From positions 1-26,082 of IMG/VR virus record IMGVR_UViG_3300042516_002159: DNA of 26,082 nucleotides; one strand, 5' to 3'. This document shows positions 304-18,605 of the stretch, one piece after another (the first letter of the stretch is position 1; every line of letters begins with the position of its first letter). The notes below the pieces were generated by a model. The model was not told where the DNA came from. It did no database searches and saw nothing but the letters and a program-made list of their open reading frames with translations. Both the position numbers and the translations under genes were made by a program. Origin of the DNA: a virus.

Positions 304-311
304 ATAAATAT
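304..311 (-). promoter_or_regulatory. ATATTTAT octamer, candidate late promoter
   Basis: In transcription direction the gap reads aaATATTTATg followed by ATG. This is the same octamer found ahead of eight other genes here. Only one base separates it from the start codon, so a transcript begun here would be leaderless or start inside the gene. This is the weakest positional match of the set. Confidence 0.3.
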
Positions 312-1595
312 TTATATTTTAGTTAAACCGTGGTATGTATTACCTTGTTTAATTGTTACGGGATATTCGAGTAGGTCTACTATATCTTGCAATATGTCGC
401 CATCCTCTTTACTATAATCGAATAAAAACGCATCGTAAGTATACAATACGATTTTTGTTTTCTTACCCTTTAAATAATCAAGTACTTTTTCTAATAACAT
501 AACATTAGTTGATGTTTCAGTACTTTGAATTATGTAGTTGAATAATTTTGCTGGTGTTATTTCAGTGGTATTTGGAAATATTTTGTTTGTTGTTGAATAT
601 GATTTGCCATATTGATACGTAATCCACATATCATCAATAAACATATTTACATTTTTAAAGAATGGTTTGGATTGATATTCACTCCACACACCACCATACA
701 ACTGTTTGAATGTTAATTCCTTAGCTGCTTGTTTATCTACGCCTAATAGTTCACCCAATACATCATATGTGTTTTTATCTTTAGGAAAATTAAAACCAAT
801 TAATTCACCAATTAATCGTGGGTGATATCCCTGAAAATCCATCTCAATAAACATATCATTTTCTGGCTGATAGCACATACGCTCGCCATCATCTTTATTC
901 AACGCTGCAAAATTAACGCTATTAAATGTGTTAGAGGGACGCGACGTTGTTGTATACAAGTTATAATGAGTGTATATTTTTCCGCGTTTTAAGTTGAATT
1001 CTGGGTGGGGTATCTTACCTTGGTAATAATCGATGAAACAGTCTTTATTGAGCTTTACACCGTTTGATTCGAGCTGATAGAATACATTAGATGTATGGTC
1101 ATTATTAAAATCAAATTGGATACTTGGTGTAAATGATTGTATCAATGGTAATACCTCACTAAATGTGTTTTCCCACTCTTCATAATGTTTGCTAATTGGT
1201 ATTAGGCAATTAACATTAGGTAAAGCGTAATGTTTGCTGTTGTAAAATTCACTACAGTTGGTGGGTACCTTATGTGTGTGTTGAATGAAATTTACATCAA
1301 ATAATTTTTGTGGTTGGTTGAAATAATACAATGCTTTTTTCTTATCTAATACCCACATCTTCTGTGTGTTGTTAAGTAACCACCACTCAACATCTTTTTT
1401 ATCTAAACCAAACGATTCGTTATGATTAATACACAACATAAATCCTTTAGTTCTTATAAGATCCCTAACATAAACTAAACTTAATTCAGTTAATGCAGGG
1501 TGGTAATTATCGTTTTTGGGAATGAAACTAACGAAACAGTCTCTAAAGCTACCTAGCTTCTCTAGCTGGTCTAAGCGTTCAATAATGTAAAACAT
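312..1595 (-). CDS. Divergent family A DNA polymerase (polymerase domain only)
   Basis: A 427-residue protein whose C-terminal half matches the palm and fingers of family A (Pol I-type) DNA polymerases, which extend primers using dNTPs and two metal ions. The Pol I TxTxR...NxQN region appears as T215-R219 and N228. Motif A is EMDFQGYHPRL with the metal-binding aspartate D253, where the usual E of DYSQIE is H258. Motif B is KQAAKELTFKQLYGG, keeping K292, F296 and Y300 with K in place of the usual first R. Motif C is LYTYDAFLF with D388, so the usual HDE is YDA. The two catalytic aspartates are therefore kept. The first 170 residues show no recognisable 3'-5' or 5'-3' exonuclease motifs, so proofreading, if any, must come from another gene. 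It lies directly downstream of the baseplate genes, an unusual place for a replication enzyme. The leader carries a degenerate copy of the promoter octamer (ATATTTCG, 1611-1618). Family A assignment is firm; activity is inferred. Confidence 0.85.
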   Translation of the reverse strand: MFYIIERLDQLEKLGSFRDCFVSFIPKNDNYHPALTELSLVYVRDLIRTKGFMLCINHNESFGLDKKDVEWWLLNNTQKMWVLDKKKALYYFNQPQKLFDVNFIQHTHKVPTNCSEFYNSKHYALPNVNCLIPISKHYEEWENTFSEVLPLIQSFTPSIQFDFNNDHTSNVFYQLESNGVKLNKDCFIDYYQGKIPHPEFNLKRGKIYTHYNLYTTTSRPSNTFNSVNFAALNKDDGERMCYQPENDMFIEMDFQGYHPRLIGELIGFNFPKDKNTYDVLGELLGVDKQAAKELTFKQLYGGVWSEYQSKPFFKNVNMFIDDMWITYQYGKSYSTTNKIFPNTTEITPAKLFNYIIQSTETSTNVMLLEKVLDYLKGKKTKIVLYTYDAFLFDYSKEDGDILQDIVDLLEYPVTIKQGNTYHGLTKI

Positions 1596-1629
1596 AACCT
1601 TTTTATTTGACGAAATATAAGACCAAATT

Positions 1630-2106
1630 TTAGCCTTCCAAAAAAGATTTTAAACCTGGAAGTTGTTTTTCTGCCTGGTCTGTGCTTTGTGTTGGTCCAA
1701 TAAAAGTAGTTTGATATAAAGCATTTCCTTGTAATGAATCATAAGTATCCTTACTAATTTCCTTTATAGTAGTTGGCTTGATATTAACCTGACTTGAAAA
1801 ATATCTTTCTGGTATTGAATTGCTTTCTGTGTTTGGTTGTATCGATGTTACTTTTGGACTTTGCAATGCTTGAGAAGTTACTCCAGATATTGCACTAAAT
1901 ATGGCTAATGATGGATTAAATAACATAGTATTAGCCTGTTCTATTTTGATTATTTCAGGTGCTTTATCACTATATTCCTTACCAGCATAATAAGAATCAT
2001 TAAGTATATAATATGGTCCTTTATAAGATACTTGTTGATCTTTAGTATAGAACTCTCCCCCAGATGTATACTTGCCTGTTTGTATTATATTTTTAGGTAC
2101 TTTCAT
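1630..2106 (-). CDS. Unrecognised protein in the baseplate cluster
   Basis: A 158-residue protein starting with ATG 2 nt after the TAA of the hub gene (TAATTATG), so it is almost certainly co-translated with it. The N-terminal half is rich in Y, K and G (segments such as YKGPYYILNDSYYAGKEYSD). The middle holds a short hydrophobic stretch (LFNPSLAIFSAISGVTSQAL) and the C-terminal part is polar. No signal peptide, Cys cluster or catalytic motif is visible. The position between the hub/peptidase gene and the polymerase suggests a minor structural or assembly protein of the baseplate, but this rests on context alone. Confidence 0.8.
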   Translation of the reverse strand: MKVPKNIIQTGKYTSGGEFYTKDQQVSYKGPYYILNDSYYAGKEYSDKAPEIIKIEQANTMLFNPSLAIFSAISGVTSQALQSPKVTSIQPNTESNSIPERYFSSQVNIKPTTIKEISKDTYDSLQGNALYQTTFIGPTQSTDQAEKQLPGLKSFLEG

Positions 2107-2108
2107 AA

Positions 2109-5607: not shown

Positions 5608-7605
5608 TTATGGTTTAATATAGTTTGGTTCTCCGTTATTAGCTCCATTGTAGTTTTGAGCAATATTAGATGTTTGTTGTGATTTTGAAGGAACTTTATT
5701 AGTATTTTGTGTTTGTGATCCAATTGGAGTAAATGTCATACTTACTTCTAAAACGTGAGGTAGAATTAACTGTCTATCTGCTAATCCTATTTCCCAAGGT
5801 GAATCTTGTGGCACCGTATAAGATATATTATTTAAAATTCCAGGTTGACCATCAATCCAGTTACCAACAGTCATTTTTACTAATGGACCTCTCATTAAAT
5901 TATTATTATAATCAGGCATTAAATTACCCATTAAAAAATTTAATTTTTGATACATTGGTTCCATTTCAACAGCAGATAATGCTGCTACCTTAAATCCAAT
6001 GCTTATTTTACGTGTAAACCCATCATATACATAAAATCTATCTCCACGACCAGCATATTTAATTTCATTCCAAGTAGCATCTGTATTGTCTGTAAATTGA
6101 GTAATATATGCTCTAAATATCATCCATTCTGATTTATTAGGATCGGTGCTATCTATTGCTTGTATTCTAAATTTAACTAGGTCATTTATAGTTTGAACAT
6201 CAGCATTTGGTATATTAATAGGAGGTGTATCCCCTATTGTACCTGTATTTGTGCTAAATATAGGTGTTAAGTTGATTGAATCTGTTCTACCACTACCAAC
6301 TCTATTTTCACGATTATTTTTAGACCAGCTTCCTGAAATTTTAACAGTTATTTCATTGTTATTTTTATCTTTTAATCCATTTTTATAAACTATTTCTGAG
6401 TTAGTTGTAATATATGAATTAATATTTCCATTATAAGTATCTGATCCTGATACTCCTAATCCAGTGAATTTATTATCATTATAAGTAAAAATAATTGGTT
6501 TAGTTTGTTTATCTATTTTCTTTTTTAAATCGGCATATTGTTTAGAAGCAGGTGTTGTGTAGTTTACTACATTTTGACCTATCTGAGAAGGAATTGATGT
6601 TGGGCTATCTTTATCAATACCTACTTTACTAGCAAATTGTTGATTTGATGTTTCTACAGTGTATGAAACGTCTGTTATTCCTCTTATAGCATTTGGTCTA
6701 CCAAAAGTTAATGCTGGGTTAGGAGGATTAGGAGTACTTTTAGTTTCAAACTGAAAATACTGAGATGATACTCCTAACAAACCTAAATAATTAACATTTC
6801 CTGGATTGCCTCCTATTGATGAATGATTTTGTGGTTGTTGTTTATTAATACCGTTAGATGTATAATCATAACGTCTAATAGTTGTTAAACCTATACCATA
6901 AACAGATCCAGGACCTCCTAAATATCGGTCTATTACTTGTTGTTGTGGTTTTATAAATAAAGAAGCGCCTGGTATTATTGATACCAAATTTCTAATAGCA
7001 CCTAATATTCTAGAGTTTTCTGGGTTTTTGCGTGGAAGTAGATCAGCAACATAGTTTACTAATCTATTATTTTTACCGTTATCCTTATTGTTAGCTCGAG
7101 CTACAGCTAAATACTTAGTACTATCATCTTGTACAGGTAATAAACCATGTCTATTAAAATGTATACCAAATGCATTTGCAGGTACTTGAGCTAATGTGTT
7201 TATACCTAAGTTGTAAAGACGTGTTGGTTGTAATAATCCTCCTGTTACAGGGCCTAAATCGCCTGTTAATAAACTACTTACTAATCCACCTAATCCTTTT
7301 TTTACTTCTAATTTTGGATTTGATAACTGCAAACCAACTTGCTTAACAACCCATAATGGACCCTTTGGTAAATCTGTTAAGAATTTACCTATACGAAGTG
7401 TATCAACAACAGCAGCGTTAGTAGCACCTATAATCCCACCTCTAACAAAACCATCATCGAATTTAGTCATTCGAAAACGGTTAAAGCCGCTATCAACTGT
7501 ATTGATATCGACTTTTTGGTATGGTTGACCGCTGTCACCTCCGCCTGGTCGATCATTTCCGTACTTAAGTGATTTTAAGTTGGTTTTCAGATCAATTAAT
7601 GGCAT
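5608..7605 (-). CDS. Baseplate/tail-tube-cap structural protein
   Basis: A 665-residue protein. The C-terminal third (about residues 475-635) shows a conserved block with FRAYITQFTDN, YAGRGDRFYVYDGFTRKI, a MEPMYQKLNFLMG helix, GPLVKMTVGNW and MTFTPIG. I recognise this arrangement from baseplate proteins of T4-like aquatic phages that sit where T4 has gp48/gp54 (tail tube initiator or cap). The N-terminal two thirds are rich in G, N and P with no identifiable fold. The start ATG overlaps the stop of the preceding 78-residue gene (TAATG), indicating translational coupling. Its place between the tape measure and gp53/hub genes supports a baseplate role; the exact T4 counterpart is uncertain. Confidence 0.7.
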   Translation of the reverse strand: MPLIDLKTNLKSLKYGNDRPGGGDSGQPYQKVDINTVDSGFNRFRMTKFDDGFVRGGIIGATNAAVVDTLRIGKFLTDLPKGPLWVVKQVGLQLSNPKLEVKKGLGGLVSSLLTGDLGPVTGGLLQPTRLYNLGINTLAQVPANAFGIHFNRHGLLPVQDDSTKYLAVARANNKDNGKNNRLVNYVADLLPRKNPENSRILGAIRNLVSIIPGASLFIKPQQQVIDRYLGGPGSVYGIGLTTIRRYDYTSNGINKQQPQNHSSIGGNPGNVNYLGLLGVSSQYFQFETKSTPNPPNPALTFGRPNAIRGITDVSYTVETSNQQFASKVGIDKDSPTSIPSQIGQNVVNYTTPASKQYADLKKKIDKQTKPIIFTYNDNKFTGLGVSGSDTYNGNINSYITTNSEIVYKNGLKDKNNNEITVKISGSWSKNNRENRVGSGRTDSINLTPIFSTNTGTIGDTPPINIPNADVQTINDLVKFRIQAIDSTDPNKSEWMIFRAYITQFTDNTDATWNEIKYAGRGDRFYVYDGFTRKISIGFKVAALSAVEMEPMYQKLNFLMGNLMPDYNNNLMRGPLVKMTVGNWIDGQPGILNNISYTVPQDSPWEIGLADRQLILPHVLEVSMTFTPIGSQTQNTNKVPSKSQQTSNIAQNYNGANNGEPNYIKP

Positions 7606-7841
7606 TACCCGTTATATTTTTTCTTTGGAGTGTATTTGTCTTTACTATCACCAATGTCTAAACGAGATGGTGTTGGTTTTTGACCAGTACCGCTAATAGT
7701 TCTCCAAGTTACATCAGGTTTACCGTCTGTTGAATAATTCAAATGTAATGAATCTGGTGGAACTGGGTTAACGCCGAATTGTTGAGGTCTAGTACCTTTT
7801 AGTCCTAAAATACCTGTTTTTAATTTGTCTAATAATCCCAT
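7605..7841 (-). CDS. Small unrecognised protein between tape measure and baseplate genes
   Basis: A 78-residue, basic, P/G/T-rich protein with no hydrophobic segment beyond a short amphipathic N-terminus (MGLLDKLKTGILGLKG). A central segment reads PPDSLHLNYS. Its stop codon overlaps the start of the 665-residue baseplate gene (TAATG), so the two are probably made in linked amounts. The upstream gap carries an ATATTTAT octamer (7857-7864), so this gene may head the baseplate transcription unit. It may be a minor baseplate component or an assembly factor; no family is recognised. Confidence 0.7.
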   Translation of the reverse strand: MGLLDKLKTGILGLKGTRPQQFGVNPVPPDSLHLNYSTDGKPDVTWRTISGTGQKPTPSRLDIGDSKDKYTPKKKYNG

Positions 7842-7856: not shown

Positions 7857-7864
7857 ATAAATAT
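7857..7864 (-). promoter_or_regulatory. ATATTTAT octamer, candidate late promoter
   Basis: In transcription direction the gap reads aaATATTTATatt. The start codon of the 78-residue gene lies about 15 nt beyond the octamer. It fills most of the 30-nt gap between the tape measure stop and this gene. Candidate head of the baseplate operon. Confidence 0.45.
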
Positions 7865-7871: not shown

Positions 7872-10043
7872 TTATGCTAATTTGTATGTATTTTGTACTG
7901 ATGTAGTACTTACATCTCTAGAAAATGCATCTTTGCCATTAATGTATGCTACGGATGGGCGTGATCCTAATTGAGTAATAGCCGCTTTAACTTCATTGAT
8001 AGCTGCTATCATTGGTGTTAAATCAACTGATGTTCCTCCACCTAATATTTTGTCTGCTTTAGGTGAATTTAAAGGGATAATAGCTTCAGGACCGGCTTCA
8101 CCAACAGTTGCATTATTAATTTCACTTGTTATAATACCACCTGATGCGAATTTAGGGCCGCTATTAATTAAAGCATATACTCCTGCTACAGCGGCAGCGG
8201 CTGCTGCTAAACCTGCTAAAGCTTTAAATGGATTTGCAACAGCCCAAGCTGCTGCTATTCCTATCTGGGTTGCTAATTCTTCACCTTTCATTAAATTCAT
8301 AGCACCTTGTGCTGTTAATGCTGAAGTTGAAGCGGCAGCTTGAGCTACCTGAAATCCTAATTTTAATGATTCAAATGCTACTATTCCTTTTTGTACAGCA
8401 TATATACCAGCAAAAACAGAAGCTATACTTGTTATAAGAGGTAAAGCTTTTGTTAACATGTCTAAGAATCCTCCTAAAGGTCCTGCTACTAAATTACCAA
8501 AGAAATCTTGTAATTTTAAAACAGCTTGGTTGAATTTATCTTGTATTGCTTGTCTTTCAATTGCTACTTTAGCTTCTTCTTCAGTTATTTGAGCTAATGA
8601 TTTTCCTTGTTTTATAGCTTCCTCTCTTTTTCTTAAAGTTTCAGCTAATTCATCAGAAGTCATTCCAACAGCTTCCGCTAAGGATTTCTGTTGTATAACA
8701 TTCATTTGGGAAAATTCAGCTGCACTTCCTACATTTGCTGCTAATTCTTCTGCTAATGCTACTTGATCTCCTATTAAGGCTGCTGCTCTTGCTCTTTCTA
8801 AATTAATCTGTTTGCCTGTTATTAATTCAGCTTTTAATTCACTTTCAATTGATGATTCAAAATTTAAAAGTGATTCACCTGATTTGGCTACTTGATCTAA
8901 AGTCATACCAAATGCTTTAGCGGCAACAACGGCTTTAGCTATTCTTTCTGGGTTGTATCCTAAATTTGCAGCTAATTGGCCTGATACTTTAACAGCTTCA
9001 GCTAATGTAGCTTTAAAATTAATTCCTACTTTAAATTGGTTTCTTGCTGCTACTAATCCTTTAACAAACCCTTGATATGTTTGTTCAGATGATTTACCTG
9101 TTAATACAGATAAACGTTGTATCTGAGCTGCTTCATCTGCTTGTAATCCAACTTGTTTAGTTAATTTAATTTGAGTTTCAAGTTGATCAGTTGTAAATTC
9201 ATAAACATATCCTGTAGATGTAGCTAATTCACTAAAAGCATTTACTAAATTTTCAGTAGTAACATTTATATTATTACTGGATCGAGCAGCGGCTGCTAGA
9301 TTTTCTCTATAGGTATAAGAATCTTTTCCTAGTTGTTTTCCTAATTCTACAATCTGTTGATTTGCTTTTAAAGCTTGGTTTAAAAAGAAGGTAAGTAAAG
9401 TAAGAGGATCTGTTAATCCTTTTCCTAATTGTTTTCCTATTTCACCAGCTGCAACTCCCATTGTTCTAAAAGTACCACCACCTTTAGCAGCGACAACTCT
9501 CATTTTTCTTTCAATCTCTTCAGTATTGAAGAATTTACCTATAAATGGAACTTTATTTAATCCACTAACTAATTTACCAGTTAGACCTAATCTTCTTTCT
9601 ACTAATTCAAGTTGTTTTTCATCTTTTTTAAGAAGTTGTTCTTGAATATCTAATGATTTTAGAGCAGCAGCATAATCTTCTTCACTATATTGTAAACCTA
9701 ACAATTTAGCATGCTGCATCTTTCTATCTAGTTCCGCTCTTTTTTCCCCTAATGATTGTAATTGTTTAGCTATATCTTTTTCTTTGATAATACCGCTATT
9801 TATTCTGCCTTGGTTATGGGCAAATTCATCAGACATTTTAGCTAACCTAGTAAAAGTTCTAGTTAAGTCTTTACCCACAGCAGCCATAGTACTAGCTTCA
9901 GCTGAATCAAATGCTCCTTCAACAGCATCTCTTAATACATTAGCATAATTAGAAGCAACGGACATTAATGTGTCTCTTATATACACATTTTGTTCGTCTA
10001 TTGCTTTTTGAGCAGCTGCAGTATTTGATGTTGATGTAGCCAT
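7872..10043 (-). CDS. Tail tape measure protein
   Basis: A 723-residue protein with the usual build of tape measure proteins, which set tail length and leave the tube ahead of the DNA. Residues 1 to about 170 are charged and helical (coiled coil, many K/E/L). The middle is Ala-rich helical. The last third has hydrophobic stretches (LITSIASVFAGIYAVQKGIV and an Ala-rich segment ending in VAGVYALINSG). The segment FASGGIITSE...GEAGPEAIIPL (ending near residue 658) is a classic tape-measure C-terminal signature. At about 1.5 angstrom per residue the length would predict a tail near 100 nm. It sits after the gp26/gp51-like chaperone-type genes and before baseplate genes, the expected place. A terminator-like hairpin and a promoter octamer lie just upstream. 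Confidence 0.93.
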   Translation of the reverse strand: MATSTSNTAAAQKAIDEQNVYIRDTLMSVASNYANVLRDAVEGAFDSAEASTMAAVGKDLTRTFTRLAKMSDEFAHNQGRINSGIIKEKDIAKQLQSLGEKRAELDRKMQHAKLLGLQYSEEDYAAALKSLDIQEQLLKKDEKQLELVERRLGLTGKLVSGLNKVPFIGKFFNTEEIERKMRVVAAKGGGTFRTMGVAAGEIGKQLGKGLTDPLTLLTFFLNQALKANQQIVELGKQLGKDSYTYRENLAAAARSSNNINVTTENLVNAFSELATSTGYVYEFTTDQLETQIKLTKQVGLQADEAAQIQRLSVLTGKSSEQTYQGFVKGLVAARNQFKVGINFKATLAEAVKVSGQLAANLGYNPERIAKAVVAAKAFGMTLDQVAKSGESLLNFESSIESELKAELITGKQINLERARAAALIGDQVALAEELAANVGSAAEFSQMNVIQQKSLAEAVGMTSDELAETLRKREEAIKQGKSLAQITEEEAKVAIERQAIQDKFNQAVLKLQDFFGNLVAGPLGGFLDMLTKALPLITSIASVFAGIYAVQKGIVAFESLKLGFQVAQAAASTSALTAQGAMNLMKGEELATQIGIAAAWAVANPFKALAGLAAAAAAVAGVYALINSGPKFASGGIITSEINNATVGEAGPEAIIPLNSPKADKILGGGTSVDLTPMIAAINEVKAAITQLGSRPSVAYINGKDAFSRDVSTTSVQNTYKLA

Positions 10044-10061: not shown

Positions 10062-10069
10062 ATAAATAT
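10062..10069 (-). promoter_or_regulatory. ATATTTAT octamer, candidate late promoter of the tape measure gene
   Basis: In transcription direction, the hairpin at 10071-10093 and its T run are followed by taATATTTATacgg, and the tape measure ATG comes 18 nt beyond the octamer. The order terminator, promoter octamer, short leader, gene suggests a separate transcription unit. Confidence 0.5.
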
Positions 10070-10070: not shown

Positions 10071-10093
10071 AAAAGCGCCTATTTCTTAGGCGC
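10071..10093 (-). terminator. Intrinsic terminator overlapping the end of the gp51-like frame
   Basis: On the minus strand GCGCCTA - AGAAA - TAGGCGC forms a perfect 7-bp GC-rich stem with a 5-nt loop, followed by TTTT then AATATT. The stop codon TAG of the small upstream frame lies at the edge of the loop. The U-tract is short, so termination may be partial. Confidence 0.6.
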
Positions 10094-10330
10094 CTTTGCT
10101 GTATATGTTGGTTGTTTAGGAGCTATGTTTGGACGTGATATATCTTTGTTAGATTTATTTTTTAGCATATTTTGTTGTTTTTCAGCTTCTTCCTTTTGTT
10201 TTTCATAATGCTCACGCAATGTTTCAAAGGTAAAACGTCGCAACCAAATAGGCATGTTATAAACGGTATTCCAATCATAACCACCCTGTCCGTTAAATAC
10301 AATTTCGTGTATTGTTTTAAATAAATGTAT
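10079..10330 (-). CDS. gp51-like baseplate assembly protein; overlapping frame without a standard start
   Basis: This frame is open from 10378 to the TAG at 10079-10081 and encodes a strikingly conserved-looking segment, GGYDWNTVYNMPIWLRRFTF, followed by a charged helix (EHYEKQKEEAEKQQ) and a basic P/K-rich tail. The MPIWLRRF core resembles the small hub-assembly proteins (T4 gp51 type) that follow gp26 in T4-like phages. No ATG, GTG or TTG precedes the conserved core. The first ATG (10255) would cut it, leaving 58 residues. Three routes are possible: an ATA start at 10330 (with AGGAG 6 nt upstream, used here for the coordinates, 83 residues), frameshifting from the gp26-type gene at the T7 run 10352-10358, or the short 58-residue form. 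That the frame is coding seems likely; the start is unresolved. Confidence 0.6.
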   Translation of the reverse strand: MHLFKTIHEIVFNGQGGYDWNTVYNMPIWLRRFTFETLREHYEKQKEEAEKQQNMLKNKSNKDISRPNIAPKQPTYTAKAPKK

Positions 10331-10331
10331 C

Positions 10332-11072
10332 CTATACTCCTGAGTCAGGCCAAAAAAAGTTAAGTCCTGGAGTAAACTCTATGCCCTCCCCAACATAGCT
10401 TTTATCTTTAGGGATAAATCTCATATCAACATCTGGGGTGATTTTAGCGTAGTATTGGCGTAATGCTCTAGCATCTTGTGCTAACATAGAATCAGAAAAT
10501 TCACGTATTGCTTTTGTATCACGGTTACCATTAATAGATGTTATGATATATTTTAAGCGTGTTGTAACATCTGTTGTAGCATTTGGATTTACTTTTTGCA
10601 AACCTTTAATTTCAGCATCAATTTTCTGTTCATCACTATGTGTTAACAGTTTAAACGTTACTGTATTACCTGTTTGAGGTAAAGTAAATGAAAAATCATT
10701 TATACCAGATTCAAACAATGTGTAATCAACTTTTTTATCTTCTAGCTGTGATAAATCAACTGTGTGGTTTTCATTACCGTAGAAAACATTATAATCTTTA
10801 CCATAACCTAAAACACGAGCAGCAATTAATATTGCATTTTTATCACCAACTAATAATTCATTATAGTCGATTGGTGTTACAATCATTGATTGTAATAATT
10901 TGTCAATTACTGTGTTGTTTCTGATGTAATTAGCATTAGTAAGAATGTCTTCTTCTTTTGCTGTCATGTATTTCATTTCTACTTCACCCTTAGATAGTGG
11001 TGATTCTTTTGGGTATAATAAACCCTTAGATGGTAGTTTTACCGTTTCAGTTGGAACTTTAAATTCGCTCAT
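10332..11072 (-). CDS. T4 gp26-type baseplate hub assembly protein
   Basis: A 246-residue protein. The N-terminus (PTETVKLPSKGLLYPKESPL, then EMKYMTAKEEDIL) is the hallmark of the T4 gp26-type baseplate family (PF12322-like), which acts in assembly of the baseplate hub. The rest is mixed polar sequence and ends in GLNFFWPDSGV. It is a little longer than T4 gp26 (208 residues). The gene has its own promoter octamer (11096-11103) just downstream of a strong terminator. Its 3' end contains a run of seven T (aac ttt ttt tgg) and overlaps the gp51-like frame in the +1 (equivalently -2) register. Its position just before the tape measure is also where other tailed phages keep their tail assembly chaperones. 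Confidence 0.85.
   Translation of the reverse strand: MSEFKVPTETVKLPSKGLLYPKESPLSKGEVEMKYMTAKEEDILTNANYIRNNTVIDKLLQSMIVTPIDYNELLVGDKNAILIAARVLGYGKDYNVFYGNENHTVDLSQLEDKKVDYTLFESGINDFSFTLPQTGNTVTFKLLTHSDEQKIDAEIKGLQKVNPNATTDVTTRLKYIITSINGNRDTKAIREFSDSMLAQDARALRQYYAKITPDVDMRFIPKDKSYVGEGIEFTPGLNFFWPDSGV
10352..10358 (-). other. T7 run, possible ribosomal slippery site
   Basis: In transcript direction: aac ttt ttt tgg cct gac. Seven consecutive T let FF codons re-pair in any register. A +1 or -2 slip here would fuse the gp26-type protein (through NFF) to the gp51-like frame (GLTQEYR...). The run may equally be a by-product of the conserved Phe-Phe-Trp ending. Confidence 0.3.
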
Positions 11073-11095: not shown

Positions 11096-11103
11096 ATAAA
11101 TAT
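11096..11103 (-). promoter_or_regulatory. ATATTTAT octamer, candidate late promoter of the gp26-type gene
   Basis: In transcription direction, the terminator at 11107-11137 is followed by cgtATATTTATatatac, and the ATG lies 23 nt beyond the octamer. Immediate terminator-to-promoter succession is good evidence for a transcription-unit boundary. Confidence 0.5.
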
Positions 11104-11106: not shown

Positions 11107-11137
11107 AAAAAAAAAGACGTTTGCCAAAGCAAACGTC
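11107..11137 (-). terminator. Strong intrinsic terminator after the tail tube gene
   Basis: On the minus strand GACGTTTGC - TTTG - GCAAACGTC forms a perfect 9-bp stem with a 4-nt loop, followed at once by nine T. It begins 24 nt after the tube stop codon. This textbook rho-independent terminator ends the sheath-tube transcript and would keep these very abundant products separate from low-copy baseplate assembly genes downstream. Confidence 0.92.
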
Positions 11138-11161
11138 CTTAGAAAAGAAATATTGTAATTT

Positions 11162-11647
11162 TTAGAAATTCAATACGCAGTAATCCATAGCTACAGTTAC
11201 TGATAAGTTAATAGCTGCGTCGTTAGCCCAATCGTATTCACCGAATGTAGCTGTTTTAACGTAAGCACCTTTAACTATCCACTCACCTACTACGTCGCCT
11301 ACTGGTCCTAAGATATTTAAAGTTAAGTCTTTCTTATAAAAATCAGAATAACCATCACGGCCAGTTACTGATTCATGAGCCAAACGAGCCCATTCCATTA
11401 CTGATTGAGCACCAGATGGAGTTACTGGGTCGTATAAATTCAAAGTCATGTCATTCCAACGTACTTTTCCTTTAATTTTACGGTATACGTTGATATGGTC
11501 TAAAATAATTTCACCAGCTTCGAATCCAGGTGCAGTAGCTGATTTAATCAAGTATGATGGAATACCATCGATATACATGATAAAACGGTTCTGAACTTTT
11601 GGTTCAAATGCTGTAAACATTATTTCGTTAGCGTCTAATACAGGCAT
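11162..11647 (-). CDS. Tail tube protein (gp19-like)
   Basis: A 161-residue protein, essentially the length of T4 gp19 (163). It begins MPVLDANEIMFTAFEPKVQN and contains the typical tube-protein blocks RFIMYIDGIPSYLIKSATAP, VRWNDMTLNLYDP and GEWIVKGAYVKTATFGEYDW. Tube proteins stack as hexameric rings inside the sheath to form the DNA channel. It lies directly downstream of the sheath gene with its own promoter octamer, and is followed by a strong terminator, consistent with very high expression. Start chosen at the ATG after ACATAAA; no Shine-Dalgarno motif is present. Confidence 0.95.
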   Translation of the reverse strand: MPVLDANEIMFTAFEPKVQNRFIMYIDGIPSYLIKSATAPGFEAGEIILDHINVYRKIKGKVRWNDMTLNLYDPVTPSGAQSVMEWARLAHESVTGRDGYSDFYKKDLTLNILGPVGDVVGEWIVKGAYVKTATFGEYDWANDAAINLSVTVAMDYCVLNF

Positions 11648-11671
11648 TTTATGTTAATTTAATTGCTATTA

Positions 11672-11679
11672 ATAAATAT
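11672..11679 (-). promoter_or_regulatory. ATATTTAT octamer, candidate late promoter of the tail tube gene
   Basis: In transcription direction: cctaATATTTATtaatagc, with the tube ATG 24 nt beyond the octamer. It lies in the 48-nt gap after the sheath stop codon, with no terminator between, so the tube could be made from both the sheath transcript and this start. Confidence 0.5.
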
Positions 11680-11695
11680 TAGGAACCACATCCCC

Positions 11696-13420
11696 TTATG
11701 CAGGGAACGTAGCGCCAGTTGGTAATACATTGAAGTTTAAGATAATAAATTCAGCAGTCTTAGTTGGTTGGATATAAATCTGACCTACTAATTGGTTTCT
11801 ATCAATTACATCAGCTGTATTGTTTGTTTCATCCATTACAACTTTGTAAGCAAATAAACCTTGACGTTGTACTACTGATTCCATGTATGGATTAACTTGA
11901 GCTAAGAATCTATTACGAGTGATGTTGGTATTTTGTTCAAATACTAAGTTATTAGCTACTTGACCAATAAATCCTTTTAACGCAATCAATAAACGACGAA
12001 CGTTTACGCGATCTAAAGCTGTTGCTTTACGTTGTAATGTCTTTTGACCAAATACTACAACACCTTCTCCAGGGAATGTAGCTAATGGGTTAACATTACC
12101 ATTGTATAATACATCACGATCGTTTTGAGATAATTTTCTTTCAGCTTTTAATACTGATGGAACACCACCACGATTTAAACCTGCAGGAGCAAACCATTCA
12201 GCACCAACTTGATCGTTGAATGCTAAAACACCAGCCATTACTGTTGATGCTGGAGCCCAAACTGCTTTACCTAAACCGCTTGAGTATAATTGAATCCAAG
12301 GCCAGTAAGCAGCAGCGTAGTTGCTAGATTGACCAGCAGCAGCTGTTGTAGCGGCTGTTACAACTTGACCATATAATGTAGTATCTACAATTGCAATAGC
12401 ATCGCCTCTGTTCTCACAAGTTGAGATCATAGTTGATACTGCACTGTTACCTAAAGTAACACCTGGAGCAATTAATACATTAAATTGATATTCGTCTTTA
12501 TTATTTAGTAAAGTAAAAGCAGCATTGTAAGAAGCTGAATCAAATCCTTGAATGTTGTTGTTTGTAATAACTTCGTTCATTGCTTGTCTAATTGACGTTG
12601 CAGCTACACCACCAGTAAATGAACCTTCAGAAGAACCACTACCTAAAGCAGGTAATGAACCACTATATAAAGTTGATTTATATAAACCATTGTTATCGAT
12701 TGAATCAACTTGTGGAGTTGTAACTGATGCTACACGAATATATTGAGAAGCATTAGCATAAGAACCAGTTTGATCAATGAATGGAAAACCTGCAATATCT
12801 AAACGATAAACTGGTTTAATATCACCAATTACTCTAGAGATAAAGTTAGGTAAAGCTGGGTCTAATGATAAATTAGGCCATGTTTCTATATAGTTAGGTT
12901 GATTAGCGTTGTCATTACCTTGACGAACTGCTAAACTAAATGTACCGCTACCTGTATTTACGCTTGTAATTTCCCAACGAACGTTAGTTGCACTACCGCT
13001 TGCTAAAGCACCACTTACTGCACTAGAAGTGTTGTTCATTATATCACCCCAAGCTAACGTTTCGATAGTAAATGAACTACCCGTTAAACTTAAAGCCCCA
13101 ACAGTAGCACTAGCGTAAGTACTCATACTAGTACTGCCACTAGATACAACTCTAGTAACTAACAATGTTTGACCACCGTTGTTAAAGTAATCTTTAGCAG
13201 CTAATGAAGTAAGATATTCGTAGTAGTAACTACCACTTTTGAATGTTTCTCCAAATTTAGACACATACTCAGTATAAGAAGTAACGTATGTAGGAACGAA
13301 TGGTTGACCTAATACTGTAGGACCAACGATTGCCGTTGAAGTTCCTTGAATACCTCTTTGAACTAATGATTGGTCAGACTCATTTTGGAATACACCAGGA
13401 GATAAAATTTTTTCTGCCAT
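11696..13420 (-). CDS. Contractile tail sheath protein (gp18-like)
   Basis: A 574-residue protein that forms the contractile outer layer of the tail. The N-terminus (MAEKILSPGVFQNESDQSLV) followed by GTSTAIVGPTVLGQPFVPTY is the standard sheath opening, with the SPGV motif. Further marks are KFG...YYYEYLTSLAAKDYFNNGG early on. The C-terminal domain around ERKLSQNDRDVLYNGNVNPL, KALDRVNVRRLLIALKGFI-type sequence and the ending FIILNFNVLPTGATFPA also fit. It is somewhat shorter than T4 gp18 (659). The central region is Ser/Thr/Gly-rich, as expected of the variable surface insertion. The gene is immediately upstream of the tube gene, the conserved order. Its 5' leader is unusually long for this window (about 78 nt) and contains a dyad and a promoter octamer. 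Confidence 0.96.
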   Translation of the reverse strand: MAEKILSPGVFQNESDQSLVQRGIQGTSTAIVGPTVLGQPFVPTYVTSYTEYVSKFGETFKSGSYYYEYLTSLAAKDYFNNGGQTLLVTRVVSSGSTSMSTYASATVGALSLTGSSFTIETLAWGDIMNNTSSAVSGALASGSATNVRWEITSVNTGSGTFSLAVRQGNDNANQPNYIETWPNLSLDPALPNFISRVIGDIKPVYRLDIAGFPFIDQTGSYANASQYIRVASVTTPQVDSIDNNGLYKSTLYSGSLPALGSGSSEGSFTGGVAATSIRQAMNEVITNNNIQGFDSASYNAAFTLLNNKDEYQFNVLIAPGVTLGNSAVSTMISTCENRGDAIAIVDTTLYGQVVTAATTAAAGQSSNYAAAYWPWIQLYSSGLGKAVWAPASTVMAGVLAFNDQVGAEWFAPAGLNRGGVPSVLKAERKLSQNDRDVLYNGNVNPLATFPGEGVVVFGQKTLQRKATALDRVNVRRLLIALKGFIGQVANNLVFEQNTNITRNRFLAQVNPYMESVVQRQGLFAYKVVMDETNNTADVIDRNQLVGQIYIQPTKTAEFIILNFNVLPTGATFPA

Positions 13421-13431
13421 TTTATATTATT

Positions 13432-13479
13432 GTTTTTGAAAATTTAATAGGATTGACCTAATAATAAATATTCAAAAAC
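13432..13479 (-). promoter_or_regulatory. Nested inverted repeat in the sheath gene leader
   Basis: Outer arms gtttttgaa (13432-13440) and ttcaaaaac (13471-13479) are perfect 9-bp complements. Inside them TAGG (13448-13451) and CCTA (13457-13460) form a second pair around a 5-nt loop. The promoter octamer 13464-13471 lies within. It could be an operator-like dyad or an mRNA leader structure. Confidence 0.4.
13464..13471 (-). promoter_or_regulatory. ATATTTAT octamer, candidate late promoter of the sheath gene
   Basis: In transcription direction: ttgaATATTTATtattagg. The sheath ATG is about 43 nt beyond the octamer, the longest leader of the set. It shares one base with the outer arm of the inverted repeat. 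Confidence 0.5.
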
Positions 13480-13498: not shown

Positions 13499-13765
13499 CT
13501 ATTGAATAGGTGTGATTTCTCCCGTTTCGATATTTATATTACCTTCATTATATTTTTCTTGCAAGGTTTTAGTTAGTTCCGATTCTTTCTGTTCAATTGT
13601 TTTAAGATCAGATACTAAACCCTTTTTAGCAGCTACTAATTTTTCAATTTGTTCGTTAAATACGATCAATTGTGCTTCAGCAGCGCCAATTTCAAATATA
13701 GTTTGGTTATATTTTGATTGTAAATCTTTAATAGATTGTAATTCTTCAGGTGTTAACTGTGCCAT
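13499..13765 (-). CDS. Small coiled-coil protein
   Basis: An 88-residue, almost entirely helical protein. After MAQLTPEELQSIKDLQSKYN the sequence runs in heptads rich in L, I, E, K and Q to about residue 72, then ends in GNINIETGEITPIQ. No Cys, membrane segment or enzyme motif. It lies 9 nt downstream of the zinc-ribbon-like gene and directly ahead of the sheath leader. Short coiled-coil proteins at this position are common in aquatic T4-like phages but, as far as I know, have no assigned role. An oligomeric assembly or scaffold function would fit the shape, without proof. Confidence 0.8.
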   Translation of the reverse strand: MAQLTPEELQSIKDLQSKYNQTIFEIGAAEAQLIVFNEQIEKLVAAKKGLVSDLKTIEQKESELTKTLQEKYNEGNINIETGEITPIQ

Positions 13766-13774: not shown

Positions 13775-14005
13775 TTATTGTGCCCATCTTTTATCAGGAC
13801 AGGCGTCTGGTCCCGCAGGACTAAATATTTTTTTAGATAGTGGACATCCACATAAACTACAATAGTGTAAATCTATTGTTTCATTATGGGCTTTGTGCGG
13901 ACAAGCGTCACAAACGCTTGCCCTGCTTTCAGCCAATAATTTTTGCTCTGGATTCGGATTAGCCGCAATTATCCAGGCCTTAGCAATTTCTACTAATTTA
14001 TTCAC
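13775..14005 (-). CDS. Small Cys-rich zinc-ribbon-like protein (GTG start)
   Basis: A 76-residue protein with a helical N-terminus and two paired cysteine knuckles, C32-D-A-C35 and C49-S-L-C52-G-C54, plus C69-P and H37/H40/H47. The layout CxxC...CxxCGCPL...CP..RW suggests a structural zinc site. The start is GTG at 14005, inside the 3' end of the upstream 153-residue gene (8-nt overlap, GTGAATAA), so translation is likely coupled; no ATG start lies near. No family name can be given. Possible roles include nucleic-acid binding or protein-protein contact. The same-operon neighbours are also of unknown function. Confidence 0.8.
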   Translation of the reverse strand: MNKLVEIAKAWIIAANPNPEQKLLAESRASVCDACPHKAHNETIDLHYCSLCGCPLSKKIFSPAGPDACPDKRWAQ

Positions 14006-14459: not shown

Positions 14460-14461
14460 AA

Positions 14462-14698
14462 TTACTTCTTAGTTGTTTTTTTAACTGTTGGTTTTGCTTT
14501 AGGAGCTGGTTGTGCTTTAGGAGCTTTAGCTGCTTTAGCAACTACTGCTTTTACGTCAGCAACGATTTCTTTAACTTCTTCAACTTTAGTTTCAATAGCG
14601 TCAGGAATGTTGTTGTTGTTTGCATCTTTTACTTTACCAGTTTTCATAGCAACGAATACGGCTACGGCAACGATGATTAAGATTACTAATACTGTCAT
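14462..14698 (-). CDS. Small membrane-anchored protein with a calcium-loop-like motif
   Basis: A 78-residue protein. Residues 2-18 (TVLVILIIVAVAVFVAM) form one clear transmembrane helix or uncleaved signal anchor. Right after it, D25-A-N-N-N-N-I31-P-D33-A-I-E36 matches the DxNxNxIPDxxE calcium-binding loop of thrombospondin type 3/EF-hand-like repeats, widespread in Bacteroidota surface proteins. Then come an acidic helix (KVEEVKEIVADVK) and an Ala/Pro/Lys-rich basic tail ending in VKKTTKK. It has its own promoter octamer upstream. Topology is probably N-terminus anchored with the polar tail outside or inside; I cannot tell which. It could be a lysis-related or envelope-binding protein, but no holin or spanin signature is definite. 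Confidence 0.75.
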   Translation of the reverse strand: MTVLVILIIVAVAVFVAMKTGKVKDANNNNIPDAIETKVEEVKEIVADVKAVVAKAAKAPKAQPAPKAKPTVKKTTKK

Positions 14699-14725
14699 GT
14701 TTTTTATTTTTTTTGTTTACTGTAT

Positions 14726-14733
14726 ATAAATAT
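14726..14733 (-). promoter_or_regulatory. ATATTTAT octamer, candidate late promoter
   Basis: In transcription direction: attatATATTTATatacagt. The ATG of the membrane-anchored protein gene lies 27 nt beyond the octamer, after an A-rich leader. It would drive the four-gene small-protein operon 14698-13499. Confidence 0.45.
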
Positions 14734-14777
14734 ATAATAGAGATAGGAAATAACCAAGCTTAATTTAAAATATTTTA

Positions 14778-15362
14778 TTATCTTTTTATATAAACGCTAT
14801 GGAACCCATCAACTTCACACTCAAAGCCCTTTTCTAATAATAAATTTGTTAATTTTGAATATTCAAAGCTCTCAGGTCTATCCACTTCAAACATAACAAG
14901 TCTAAGTTGATCGAAGAATTCTTGATATTGATGATAAATTGTAGATATACATCCCTCGCAATCAGCAATCAATACATTAAAGGTTAAATTAAAATCTTTC
15001 TGCAATTGCCACAAGTCATGTATCTGAACAGTTCCGTTTTCATCTTCAATGGTATATGAAGAGAAATCCCATGGTTGGAATCTTTGTTTTGTTTTTGATA
15101 TTATTCCTTTAACAATAGTAAAATCGCAATCATTGATTTTTCTGTTGTTTTCAAGAGATTCCCATACACTTTCATCTGGTTCAAGGCAAATAACATTTTT
15201 CCCTTCAACAATTTTATTAACCGTAACTGATGTGCAGCCGTATCTAGCTCCAAGCTCAAGCACCATGTCATCACTTTTGATATATTTTTGTGCCTGTTGC
15301 CATTCTGTTACTTCGTAGTAATTGTGGTCAATAATTCCACCATTAGGATGATAAATAATCAT
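14778..15362 (-). CDS. FkbM-like SAM-dependent methyltransferase
   Basis: A 194-residue class I methyltransferase. The SAM-binding motif I is VLELGARYGCTS (residues 34-45). The acidic end of beta 2 is CLEPD (59-63, E61). The FkbM-type mark is IADCEGC (132-138), followed by VMFEVD (156-161) and the C-terminal strand. FkbM enzymes usually O-methylate sugars or small metabolites. In phages they are often found beside tail fibre genes, where modification of a glycan or of a virion protein has been proposed. It follows the fibre/adhesin cluster, from which it is separated by a 54-nt gap holding a promoter octamer. The substrate cannot be read from sequence. Confidence 0.82.
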   Translation of the reverse strand: MIIYHPNGGIIDHNYYEVTEWQQAQKYIKSDDMVLELGARYGCTSVTVNKIVEGKNVICLEPDESVWESLENNRKINDCDFTIVKGIISKTKQRFQPWDFSSYTIEDENGTVQIHDLWQLQKDFNLTFNVLIADCEGCISTIYHQYQEFFDQLRLVMFEVDRPESFEYSKLTNLLLEKGFECEVDGFHSVYIKR

Positions 15363-15382
15363 TTATAATTTGTTTATTTGAT

Positions 15383-15390
15383 ATAAATAT
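15383..15390 (-). promoter_or_regulatory. ATATTTAT octamer, candidate late promoter of the methyltransferase gene
   Basis: In transcription direction: gtatATATTTATatcaaat, with the ATG 20 nt beyond the octamer. It separates the fibre cluster from the accessory gene block. Confidence 0.45.
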
Positions 15391-15416
15391 ATACAAAAAA
15401 CTAAGAACAACCAAAT

Positions 15417-15584
15417 TTATTTTGAATAATAATCTGGAGCTGCCGTGGATGTGTCTTCTGAACTGAATTTCATTATAATAGGTGCATTATAACTGCTTGT
15501 AATACTAAATAGTAAATACGTTAATGTAGCCAATAATGCCAATTTTAATGTGGTTTTTACTGCGTTTAAATTAATTGTTATCAT
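15417..15584 (-). CDS. Small single-helix membrane or secreted protein (55 residues)
   Basis: An ATG at 15584-15582 overlaps the TAA of the LamG adhesin gene (TAATG), and the frame runs 55 codons to a TAA at 15417-15419. The protein begins MITINLNAVKTT and has one hydrophobic segment, LKLALLATLTYLLFSIT (about residues 13-29), preceded by a lysine. A short polar tail ends in APDYYSK. This is the shape of a signal peptide or a single transmembrane anchor. The TAATG junction is the same as that seen at 7605, supporting real coupled translation. It could be a small envelope protein, a lysis accessory or a spurious hydrophobic frame; no family is recognised. Confidence 0.6.
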   Translation of the reverse strand: MITINLNAVKTTLKLALLATLTYLLFSITSSYNAPIIMKFSSEDTSTAAPDYYSK

Positions 15585-16459
15585 TATAGTCCGAATTTAG
15601 CTTTAGTTGCGTTATAATTTTGTAATACCTCAGCGTCGCTTAATGCTCTATTGTAAATCAGATAGTGACCAAGTGCTGCGTTTAAAAATATTTGTGGATT
15701 TCCATTTCCAGTATATGATGCTCCTATTGCATAAGACCTGTTTGGTTTATTTTGAACTCCTGATTTAGATGTACTGGTGTCTAGTGATCCATTTATATAC
15801 ATTTTTTGGGTTGTTCCATCGAATGTTTGGGTAAGTTGATACCACTGGTTGTAGTTATAAACTTCGTGTAAATCACTGTTTGACGTATTTGCACCAGTAG
15901 TAATTCTTGTACTCATATAGCCAATTGCTAAACCATTTAAATAAAGTTCAACACCTTGGTATTGACTATTTTCCCATCCTGTACTACCTAATGCCATTAC
16001 TTTTGGAGAAAATGTATTATTATTAAACCAAGCAGATGTTGTTGAATAATCTGTTGCTGGTGTTACATTTAATACATGGAAACCTCCTCCTAAAAAGGCA
16101 GCAGCAGGCGCTGTTGTTCCAGTATATTGATAATATCTAATTCCTCCAGATGTTGTAATAACGGGATTAGACCCACCATTAAATGTGGTTGGTGTTCCAT
16201 ATTGTCCAGAGTTAACTTTATTAGTCCATTGAGAGTTAGTTGCCGTTCCTGTATCAGAAGCATCTAAATGCCAAGTTAATCCGGATTGTACTACACCAGA
16301 AGCATCATATCCATAAAATTCACTAATGGCATCTGGGGATGATTTTCCAGCGTTAGCACTAAGTTGTCTTAGGCTATATGATGATGCAAAACCACCATTA
16401 TTTACTTGTTCATTTCTAATATCTGCTATACTTAAAGGTCCACTACTTGGTAAGGCCAT
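15584..16459 (-). CDS. LamG/concanavalin-like tail fibre adhesin
   Basis: A 291-residue protein. The N-terminus, ALPSSGPLSIADIRNEQ followed by SLRQLSANAG and PDAISEFYGY (to about residue 50), is a short module that often opens phage adhesins of aquatic viruses. The rest, about residues 58-291, has the LamG/ConA-like beta-sandwich pattern: GLTWHLDASD at the start, WYQLTQTFDGTTQKMYINGS in the middle, and YNRALSDAEVLQNYNATKAK at the end. Such domains bind carbohydrates, so this is a likely receptor-binding tip or accessory fibre. Its start overlaps the end of the upstream S74 fibre gene by 17 nt in a different frame, so the two are probably made together. Confidence 0.82.
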   Translation of the reverse strand: MALPSSGPLSIADIRNEQVNNGGFASSYSLRQLSANAGKSSPDAISEFYGYDASGVVQSGLTWHLDASDTGTATNSQWTNKVNSGQYGTPTTFNGGSNPVITTSGGIRYYQYTGTTAPAAAFLGGGFHVLNVTPATDYSTTSAWFNNNTFSPKVMALGSTGWENSQYQGVELYLNGLAIGYMSTRITTGANTSNSDLHEVYNYNQWYQLTQTFDGTTQKMYINGSLDTSTSKSGVQNKPNRSYAIGASYTGNGNPQIFLNAALGHYLIYNRALSDAEVLQNYNATKAKFGL

Positions 16460-18584
16460 TGATTATGGATTTAAGTTCTTCAATTTGTGTTTGTTGTTCT
16501 TTGATTGCTTCAACTAATAATGCTGTTACGTTGCCATAAGATACACCGTATTTATCTGCTTCTTCATTATATGTTACTACTTCTGGAACTGTTTCTTTAA
16601 CTTCTTGAGCTATGAAACCTATCTTTTTTGTTTTATCTTCTAAATCAGTTCTGTTATATGAAACACCTCTTAAATTCATCACCTTGCTTAAGGGGTTAGT
16701 TATAGTCAATACATTTTCTTTAAGTCTAAAATCTGAGAAAGCTGTTATATCTCCTACTGCTGTTATAGCTCCACCAAAAGTAGCTAAACCATCACTATTT
16801 ATAGTTAAATTATGTCTAGCTGCTGTGTTGTCATAACACATATAAAATCTACTATCACCAACACCCATTGAGAATTTTCTTGTTGTACCACCATTAGCAC
16901 CTTCTAAATTAATTACAGCATACCCACTACCATACATTGATAGTTGTTTTGTAACTGAATCATTACCCCAAGCAGTATTTAATGGGCTTGTTGTGTTTAT
17001 ACCTACTATACCACCGCTTGTTATAGTAAAAAAGGATGTAGCATTTCTTCCTATTGAAAATTTATCAGTACCAACACCAGAAGTTCCAGGTCCAATATCC
17101 CAATAATGTGTTGCAGCTGTATCAGAAGCCATTCTTATAGTAGCACCTGTCATACTACCTCCAAAACCGTTTACACCATTCGCAGTATATGAAATATGCA
17201 TGTTCATATGCATAACCCATCTATCTACAGTACTTCCATATAATGTTGGATAAGTACTGTTTCCACCCCATGATGATGCAATTGTTCCTAAGGTTGCAGA
17301 ATAAGAACCACCACTGTTTGCTGTAATAGCTCCTGTGCTAGTTAAAGTACTAAAAGTAGTTTGAGATGTTGTTGCTGAATTACCACTAATATTTGTTTGG
17401 TCACCTGTGTTTGTTCCACTTAAGTTAGTTGCACTTAAAGATCCAGGAAAACTTGTATTACCAGATCCATCTAATAATGTAGCTGTTCTTGTTAATGATG
17501 CAAATTCACCTGTATATTGTCTAACATAGATAGGTTCTGTACCATCATCTGCTGTTGCAATTTCAACAAAACCAGCATTTGAACCACCACCAGCTCTAAT
17601 TCTAAAAAAATCATTAGTACCTATGGTAGCAAAGACTAGGTTGCCCTCAGACCCTGCTGTTATTGTTTGATTAATAGCGGCTGCAGTACCTGTAGATGTT
17701 ATATAACCAGCACCATTCGTTAGCTGGTTGTTATTTGTAATTGTGTTTGCAATAGTAATTCCAGTAGAACCATTGTATGAAGTTCCACTTAATCCAGTTC
17801 CTATAGTTAATGTAGCTAAATTGCTACCTAAAGCAATTCCTGAAATTGTACTATTAGTTAATTTAGCATTAGAAACAGTTGCATCTGTGATTTGAGATCC
17901 ATTAATAGATCCTGTTAATGAATTTGCTGTTATAGATCCTGTAACACTTACAGATCCTGTAAACACGTGTGTGTTAGCACTTATAGACCCAAATCTAGTA
18001 GATCCAGTTACAAAATCAACACTTGATGTTATCGTTTGTACAACTAACGTTTGTGCCGTTATAGTTCCTGTTGCTGTAATAGATCCTGAAGTTAAAAGAG
18101 ATCCAGATAATGTTTGAGTACCTACAAATGTATTTGAACCTGTTGTAGCAAAAGTACCATTTAATGCTGTTTGTGATGCAGTATAACTTAATAAAGATGC
18201 TGTTGCAGCATTTAATGATGTAATAGAGCTATTTAAACTAGATGTTGCTGTGTTTAAAGATGCAGTTGCATTGTTTAACGATCCTATAGATGAGCTAAAT
18301 GAGGCAGTTGCCGTATTTAAAGATGCAGTTGCTGCATTTAAAGATGTAACAGAGGCATTTAAAGAAGATGAAGCTGTAAATAGAGTATTAATATTTGTTG
18401 TATTGCTACTAGTGTAGTTATACAAAGAAGCAGTTGATGCATTTAAAGATGCAGTTGCTGAGTTTAAACTATTAATGCTTGAAGCTACAGATCCAGACCA
18501 TATGCTAGATGATTGTAGGGTGTTTGTTACATCTACTCCATTTAATATAAATGAGCCTGTTACGTTGGCGCCTATTATTTTCAT
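16443..18584 (-). CDS. Long tail fibre with C-terminal S74 intramolecular chaperone
   Basis: A 713-residue fibre. The N-terminal part (about residues 37-131) is built of seven-residue SLNxATA units. The shared fibre hinge follows at about residues 174-210, then repetitive S/T/G/N-rich shaft. The last roughly 99 residues form a peptidase S74 (endosialidase-type) chaperone: FSDFRLKENV with the Ser617-Lys622 pair, then KKIGFIAQEVKETVPEVV and ALLVEAIKEQQTQIEEL. S74 domains trimerise the fibre and then cut themselves off. The gene is the last long fibre in the cluster and overlaps the LamG adhesin gene. A promoter octamer lies in its short leader, unlike the two fibre genes just upstream of it. 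Confidence 0.9.
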   Translation of the reverse strand: MKIIGANVTGSFILNGVDVTNTLQSSSIWSGSVASSINSLNSATASLNASTASLYNYTSSNTTNINTLFTASSSLNASVTSLNAATASLNTATASFSSSIGSLNNATASLNTATSSLNSSITSLNAATASLLSYTASQTALNGTFATTGSNTFVGTQTLSGSLLTSGSITATGTITAQTLVVQTITSSVDFVTGSTRFGSISANTHVFTGSVSVTGSITANSLTGSINGSQITDATVSNAKLTNSTISGIALGSNLATLTIGTGLSGTSYNGSTGITIANTITNNNQLTNGAGYITSTGTAAAINQTITAGSEGNLVFATIGTNDFFRIRAGGGSNAGFVEIATADDGTEPIYVRQYTGEFASLTRTATLLDGSGNTSFPGSLSATNLSGTNTGDQTNISGNSATTSQTTFSTLTSTGAITANSGGSYSATLGTIASSWGGNSTYPTLYGSTVDRWVMHMNMHISYTANGVNGFGGSMTGATIRMASDTAATHYWDIGPGTSGVGTDKFSIGRNATSFFTITSGGIVGINTTSPLNTAWGNDSVTKQLSMYGSGYAVINLEGANGGTTRKFSMGVGDSRFYMCYDNTAARHNLTINSDGLATFGGAITAVGDITAFSDFRLKENVLTITNPLSKVMNLRGVSYNRTDLEDKTKKIGFIAQEVKETVPEVVTYNEEADKYGVSYGNVTALLVEAIKEQQTQIEELKSIINGLTK
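17955..18065 (-). repeat. Shared fibre hinge module, copy 1
   Basis: Encodes about 37 residues (core TITAQTLVVQTITSS, then VDFVTGSTRFGS, NTHVFTG) present in all four long fibres. Nucleotides differ mainly at third positions between copies. Confidence 0.85.
18192..18476 (-). repeat. Heptad-like SLNxATA repeats in fibre coding sequence
   Basis: About residues 37-131 of the S74 fibre repeat a seven-residue unit (SLNSATA, SLNAATA, SLNTATA, SLNNATA and variants), interrupted near residues 54-73 by an Asn/Thr-rich stretch. The period of seven suggests a trimeric helical shaft. At DNA level the units are imperfect 21-mers. Confidence 0.75.
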
Positions 18585-18597
18585 TATTGTATTTTAT

Positions 18598-18605
18598 ATA
18601 AATAT
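18598..18605 (-). promoter_or_regulatory. ATATTTAT octamer, candidate late promoter of the S74 fibre gene
   Basis: In transcription direction: aaaATATTTATataaaatac, with the ATG 13 nt beyond the octamer. It is the only octamer inside the fibre cluster between long fibre genes. Confidence 0.45.

Follow-up and report, generated by a model that had tools for sequence, protein, structure and literature searches.

A candidate late-promoter box in T4-related phages of Bacteroidota

Introduction

The stretch of viral DNA considered here, positions 1 to 26,082 of IMG/VR record IMGVR_UViG_3300042516_002159 (hereafter the window, 26,082 nucleotides (nt) in full), raises the question of why one octamer, ATATTTAT, recurs in the gaps between its genes, and what might read it. 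An original prediction made from the letters alone took the octamer for a candidate phage late promoter, a proposal now supported by its bias towards gaps and one strand, by its conservation and by its position ahead of structural genes. In all probability, ATATTTAT is a -10-like late-promoter box of Bacteroidota T4-related phages, read by a gp55-like sigma factor of the family that includes gp118 of Flavobacterium phage immuto. The support computed here is at the level of sequence, and covers the identity, strand, placement and conservation of the box, the lack of a box at the sigma gene, and the presence of the sigma in the same phages.

The octamer in relatives of the window

Relatives were gathered by a search with the tail sheath protein, which recruited 80 viral contigs along with cultured phages, namely immuto (51% identity) and 'Microcystis phage' Mel-JY01. 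Across the window and these contigs (81 in total), ATATTTAT lies upstream of genes 405 times in the sense orientation and 3 times in antisense, at a density of 11.7 per kilobase (kb) compared to 0.056/kb within genes, a difference of approximately 200-fold. This count by gap, gene and strand had been put forward with the original prediction as a check, and its outcome favours the promoter. The octamer is present in 396 of the 476 gaps of at least 25 nt, at a median of 24 nt and a spread of about 15-45 nt from the ATG. Where a gap is present, it precedes every homologous tail tube gene (71/71), every tail sheath gene (56/56) and every gene resembling that at 7605-7841 of the window (27/27).

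A second check, on upstream motifs, was made by an enumeration free of any prior, in which all 8-mers upstream of genes were ranked within each genome. ATATTTAT ranks first in the window, in the related genome G001 (182.8 kb; 27 gaps in sense, 0 in reverse) and in a second, G002 (28 sense, 2 reverse), and ranks second in Mel-JY01 (16 sense, 0 reverse). In immuto, it is the core TATTTATA that ranks second (25 sense, 7 reverse), with 18 and 1 for the full ATATTTAT. Some other high-ranking words (GGGGATGT, GGTCAATCC) belong to single conserved gene neighbourhoods and were rejected as general signals.

The same enumeration recovers the late word TATAAATA in its sense orientation from T4 (16 sense, 7 reverse; rank 12) and from Pelagibacter phage Mosig (18 sense, 4 reverse; rank 1), and so the direction of the word found in this group is real. 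No sense enrichment of TATAAATA upstream of genes was found in the group. The earlier suspicion that the motif runs backwards relative to T4 is thereby laid to rest, and with it a reversed T4 promoter as a candidate; compared in one and the same orientation, TATTTATA and TATAAATA share 6 of their 8 bases, and the reversal was only apparent, since TATAAATA is by coincidence the reverse complement of TATTTATA. The consensus of the late box is TATTTAT[A/T], followed by an AT-rich stretch, and no conserved -35 element accompanies the class of promoters that bear this box singly.

Strong conservation extends beyond the box in the sheath leader (TTATTAGGTCAATCC) and in the stretch past the sheath stop codon (GGGGATGT); such sheath and tube leaders lie in the window at, for example, 13421-13463 and 11648-11695.

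The octamer in the window

All nine intergenic or gene-edge copies of the original prediction, and the one within a fibre-like gene, were verified on the minus strand, and the plus strand carries two more (308-315 and 13530-13537). The resulting total of 12, where 6.3 are expected, is a mild excess and weak evidence, for which reason it was replaced by tests on gaps, strand and relatives. Sense ATATTTAT is present in 8 of the 13 window gaps of at least 8 nt and its reverse complement in 0 of 13, and none of 5,000 shuffles of the gap sequences that preserved dinucleotides put the sense word in more than 4 gaps. The claim that nearly every sufficiently long gap holds the octamer stands, as 8 of the 10 gaps of at least 28 nt do. 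Of the other gaps, that at 1596-1629 bears a host-type promoter for the polymerase gene instead of a late box, and that at 10256-10331 is the one long gap with neither box nor host-type signal; an open frame crosses the latter, which is probably coding. Both copies said to follow terminators directly were found behind terminator-like hairpins. A scan for sigma-70 promoters gave sites no more numerous than in shuffles. The features, with the class of each box where assigned, are as follows.

304-311, minus strand: ATATTTAT right after the polymerase stop codon, its last two bases being the AT of the ATG of gene 3-305
1611-1619, minus strand: TATATTTCG, assigned to polymerase gene 312-1595 as a host-type -7 box rather than a late box; same in G002
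1639-1641, minus strand: TTG, host-type -33 box of the polymerase gene, 19 nt upstream of TATATTTCG
7857-7864, minus strand: late box of the single-box class (AATATTTATA), before gene 7605-7841
10062-10069, minus strand: late box, single-box class, before tape-measure-like gene 7872-10043 and after a terminator-like hairpin
10071-10097, minus strand: terminator-like hairpin just before the late box at 10062
11096-11103, minus strand: late box of the composite class (TATATTTATA), before hub gene 10332-11072 and after a terminator-like hairpin
11113-11140, minus strand: terminator-like hairpin just before the late box at 11096
11125-11127, minus strand: TTG at the host -33 position, 20 nt upstream of TATATTTAT, hub gene promoter
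11672-11679, minus strand: late box before tail tube gene 11162-11647
13464-13471, minus strand: late box before tail sheath gene 11696-13420
14726-14733, minus strand: late box, composite class, before gene 14462-14698
14755-14757, minus strand: TTG at the host -33 position, 20 nt upstream of TATATTTAT, before gene 14462-14698
15383-15390, minus strand: late box, composite class, before methyltransferase-like gene 14778-15362
15412-15414, minus strand: TTG at the host -33 position, 20 nt upstream of TATATTTAT, before gene 14778-15362
18598-18605, minus strand: late box, single-box class, before structural gene 16443-18584
22183-22190, minus strand: ATATTTAT within a fibre-like gene, probably there by chance

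Gene 7872-10043 matches the immuto tape measure gene in position. The statement that the octamer stands ahead of nine genes holds in that its placement is non-random, and fails at 304-311, where the copy overlaps the next ATG and only a leaderless message would be possible. This copy has the same place in G001 and G002, and both immuto and Mel-JY01 have a copy after the same gene.

Separately from the promoters, the 3' end of the hub gene (10332-10378) overlaps an open frame (+1/-2) that continues to 10079. The T-run at 10352-10358 is exactly seven T long (CTTTTTTTGG) and is conserved in every one of the 57 matching relatives, a pattern suggestive of programmed frameshifting such as occurs in the tail assembly genes of other phages.

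Genes with and without the box

Genes in G001 and G002 were named by homology to immuto. In both genomes, the box precedes the terminase, portal, head completion, sheath, tube, hub and tape measure genes, joined in G002 by a fibre-like gene. It is missing before the sigma, primase, polymerase and SSB genes of both, and likewise before DUF932 in G001 and before DnaB and PhoH in G002. A one-sided hypergeometric test of virion against other genes, calculated by hand on the named genes and two box-free virion genes per genome, gave p of about 0.011 for G001 and 0.0035 for G002. Judged by placement only, the box appears to drive virion genes.

Two promoter classes and host-type promoters

The -7 box of the host sigma-A is TAnnTTTG (PMC9723704), and the promoters of immuto early genes, of the form TTG-N20-TATATTTAGG, agree with it. 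Among 26 host-like boxes of immuto (TAnnTTT[A/G]G or TAnnTTTG), which mostly precede small genes at 60-77 kb, 25 have TTG exactly 20 nt upstream, compared to just 6 of 30 late boxes with TTG anywhere at 17-23 nt. In record NC_055915.1, 60-77 kb holds about two dozen near-identical promoter modules (GTTG-N20-TATATTTAGGTATCAATAATTAAAA) before small early genes.

The flanks of the octamer were examined in 390 copies from relatives with sufficient flank. When preceded by T, the octamer has TTG exactly 20 nt upstream in 79 of 145 copies; when preceded by A, G or C, it does so in 0 of 245. From this pattern, two late families, those of the hub gene and of genes like 14462-14698, carry a composite of host -33 box and late box. 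Three composites lie in the window (genes 10332, 14462 and 14778), and the earlier statement that the host element is absent must be amended for these; it stands for the single-box class, which has no TTG at 20 nt. The sequence ATATTTCG before the polymerase gene, taken previously for a degenerate copy of the octamer, is better read as part of a host-type promoter, TTG-N19-TATATTTCG, that is also found in G002. Taken together, host-type promoters (TTG-N19/20-TAnnTTT) appear to serve early genes, the sigma gene and the polymerase gene of the window.

Overlapping early and late promoters have been described for RB49 and proposed for cyanophages (PMC2984593). It is possible, if only tentatively advanced here, that the late box was built onto the host -7 box, such that composites (TTG-N20-TATATTTATA) let host sigma-A and the gp55-like sigma of the phage share overlapping elements, and a single promoter would pass from host to phage sigma at a few virion genes. 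In this view, the phage sigma would have altered its base readers (A-9 to T) and acquired a C-terminal domain.

The promoters of Mel-JY01 (PP395634.1) are also of the Bacteroidota type, with TTG at exactly 20 nt in 17 of 24 TAnnTTTG-like boxes compared to 0 of 7 in cyanophage S-RIM44, which makes its stated Microcystis host doubtful.

A candidate late sigma factor

With profiles of sigma factors and gp55, weak matches came from gp118 of immuto and from a single protein in each of G001 and G002. These and their relatives form one family of about 236-270 amino acids, sharing 40-94% identity with the G002 member, and are annotated in the two cultured relatives examined as hypothetical proteins only. 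At least 600 stretches in one scan of viral contigs encode a member. Within the phage collection, the family is confined to four immuto records, Mel-JY01 and LR756508, which also top the list of sheath matches.

The resemblance to gp55 was approached from several directions. A profile-profile comparison with seven gp55 proteins aligned 97 columns (E 6.7e-4, 27% probability), and hmmscan gave a weak match to phrog_234 (E 0.62). An AlphaFold model (predicted local distance difference test (pLDDT) 73.5, predicted template modelling score (pTM) 0.43) retrieved with Foldseek mostly sigma factors from the PDB, including T4 gp55 (7d7c; template modelling score 0.51 on target). Sigma factors likewise predominated among the viral models retrieved, such as one of a Bacillus phage (E 7e-3) and a gp55-type factor of Klebsiella phage KPV15. 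It is the agreement of several weak lines that persuades, and the gp118 family is accordingly proposed as a divergent gp55/sigma-region-2 protein.

The open complex of gp55 has Y97 stacked on A(-12), while A(-9) is contacted by both N13 and H95, and A(-8) by T99 (PMC7892883). The profile alignment places a tyrosine at Y97 that is invariant in 45 of 45 members of the gp118 family, and replaces N13 by T, H95 by F or Y, and T99 by G. The box, for its part, retains A(-12) and has A(-9) changed to T. The residue changes thus fit the change in the box, as far as a weak alignment can suggest.

The sigma, the box and the order of expression

A second set of 80 contigs was recruited by the sigma alone, regardless of late genes, and ATATTTAT was again its top upstream word (151 sense, 13 reverse). 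Among 50 sigma genes with sufficient upstream sequence, none has the box and 13 have TTTG-N20-TATATTG-like promoters. A sigma gene that lacks the box and often bears a host-type promoter is what a cascade needs. In such a cascade, host-type promoters would express replication genes first, and the gp118-family sigma would then redirect the host RNA polymerase to the head and tail genes by reading the box, at which transcription would start.

Activation may be assisted by a clamp as in T4. A gp45-related clamp was found in six sigma-bearing phages (G001, Mel-JY01 and G013-G016) using phrog_223 and a profile of the group's own clamps, since Pfam PF02916 proved too insensitive and missed a cyanophage control. 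The RNA polymerase beta' domain (PF00623) was detected in 14 of 14 cellular controls and in 0 of 14 phage records, a search that did not extend to single-subunit polymerases, and a phage-encoded multisubunit polymerase was rejected on this result.

Several observations weigh against this account. The link between sigma and box is correlative, being one of co-occurrence, and the window, a fragment, has no sigma gene in it. The jumbo phage LR756508 (LR756508.1, 484 kb) carries the sigma (44% identity) and no clear ATATTTAT signal. Each match of the sigma is weak when taken singly, with Foldseek E values against the PDB of at least 0.03 and the modest model scores above, and a sequence search of PDB structures with the sigma profile gave no match. 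No gp45-like clamp was found in immuto with phrog_223 and the group's own clamp profile. The major capsid gene lacks an exact octamer in G001 and G002, and the copy at 304-311 leaves no leader. The recruited contigs are homologous, hence their counts are not independent, a weakness from which the per-genome word counts, spanning many different genes, are free.

With regard to LR756508, a recoded stop codon was considered as the cause of its missing signal and rejected; the phage has a faint TATTTAA signal that may be its box.

Alternative explanations

The octamer could instead be an altered form of the host -7 element (TAnnTTTG), recognised by the primary sigma of the host with no phage sigma taking part. 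The fit of TATATTTAT to TAnnTTTa speaks for this, as does the TTG of the 79 T-preceded copies, at the spacing of the immuto early promoters; three copies in the window are of this kind. This explanation is nevertheless unlikely, since the base before the octamer breaks the host TA in 245 of the 390 copies, precisely those that never have TTG at 20 nt, the two kinds of box in immuto differ sharply in their upstream TTG, and the gene classes that they precede differ as well. Alternatively, the late promoter might be read by a sigma or activator from outside the gp118 family, perhaps a phage factor that has escaped recognition, which would accommodate both the correlative nature of the link and the case of LR756508. 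This is rather improbable given that contigs recruited solely by gp118-type proteins have the box as their top word, and that these proteins resemble gp55, which reads the related box of T4.

A role in translation, or in the processing or 5'-end stability of mRNA, is very improbable indeed. Such a signal might be sought at a median of 24 nt before the ATG, and Bacteroidota are described as being without Shine-Dalgarno leaders (PMC6847099), so that A/T-rich leaders might be expected. The distance from box to ATG varies, however, operon-internal genes without a gap have no octamer, two copies directly follow terminator-like hairpins, the octamer marks late genes, and T4-like phages have their -10 box at the same place. 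A promoter box read by the gp118-family sigma remains the favoured explanation.

Comparison with known systems

A literature search that left out most subscription journals found no paper on the ATATTTAT motif. A T4-type late promoter with a new box is very probably the best reading, and it offers a concrete early-to-late switch for phages that are abundant, little studied and dependent on hosts with promoters of an unusual type. On this reading, a gene so far without annotation becomes the likely late sigma, and the group illustrates how a late system of the T4 type can diverge in hosts with a different -7 box. It also provides a natural experiment in how gp55-type sigmas change their DNA word.

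The closest counterpart is the T4 late promoter (TATAAATA, served by gp55, gp33 and gp45), which is known for its AT-rich downstream stretch and lack of a conserved -35 element (PMC2988020, PMC7892883). The group shares with it an 8-bp A/T box at the -10 place, virion genes as targets, the AT-rich stretch downstream, the lack of a -35 box in the main class, a gp55-like sigma and, in several members, a gp45-related clamp. It differs in that the AA at -10/-9 (T4 numbering) is TT, that its sigma is longer and bears a conserved C-terminal helical part absent from T4 gp55, and that some promoters are composites with the host -33 box. The promoter would operate in the manner of T4 late promoters, but its different box keeps it from being classed with those of the TATAAATA type. 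The NATAAATA late promoters of cyanophages such as S-PM2 (PMC2984593) are likewise T4-type late boxes in a distant T4 relative, sometimes beside early promoters, but differ in both box and host phylum. With the sigma-A promoters of Bacteroidota themselves (TTG / TAnnTTTG, PMC9723704), the composite class shares the -33 TTG and TATATTT, whereas the main late class has neither the -33 element nor the leading T, and ends in AT rather than G.

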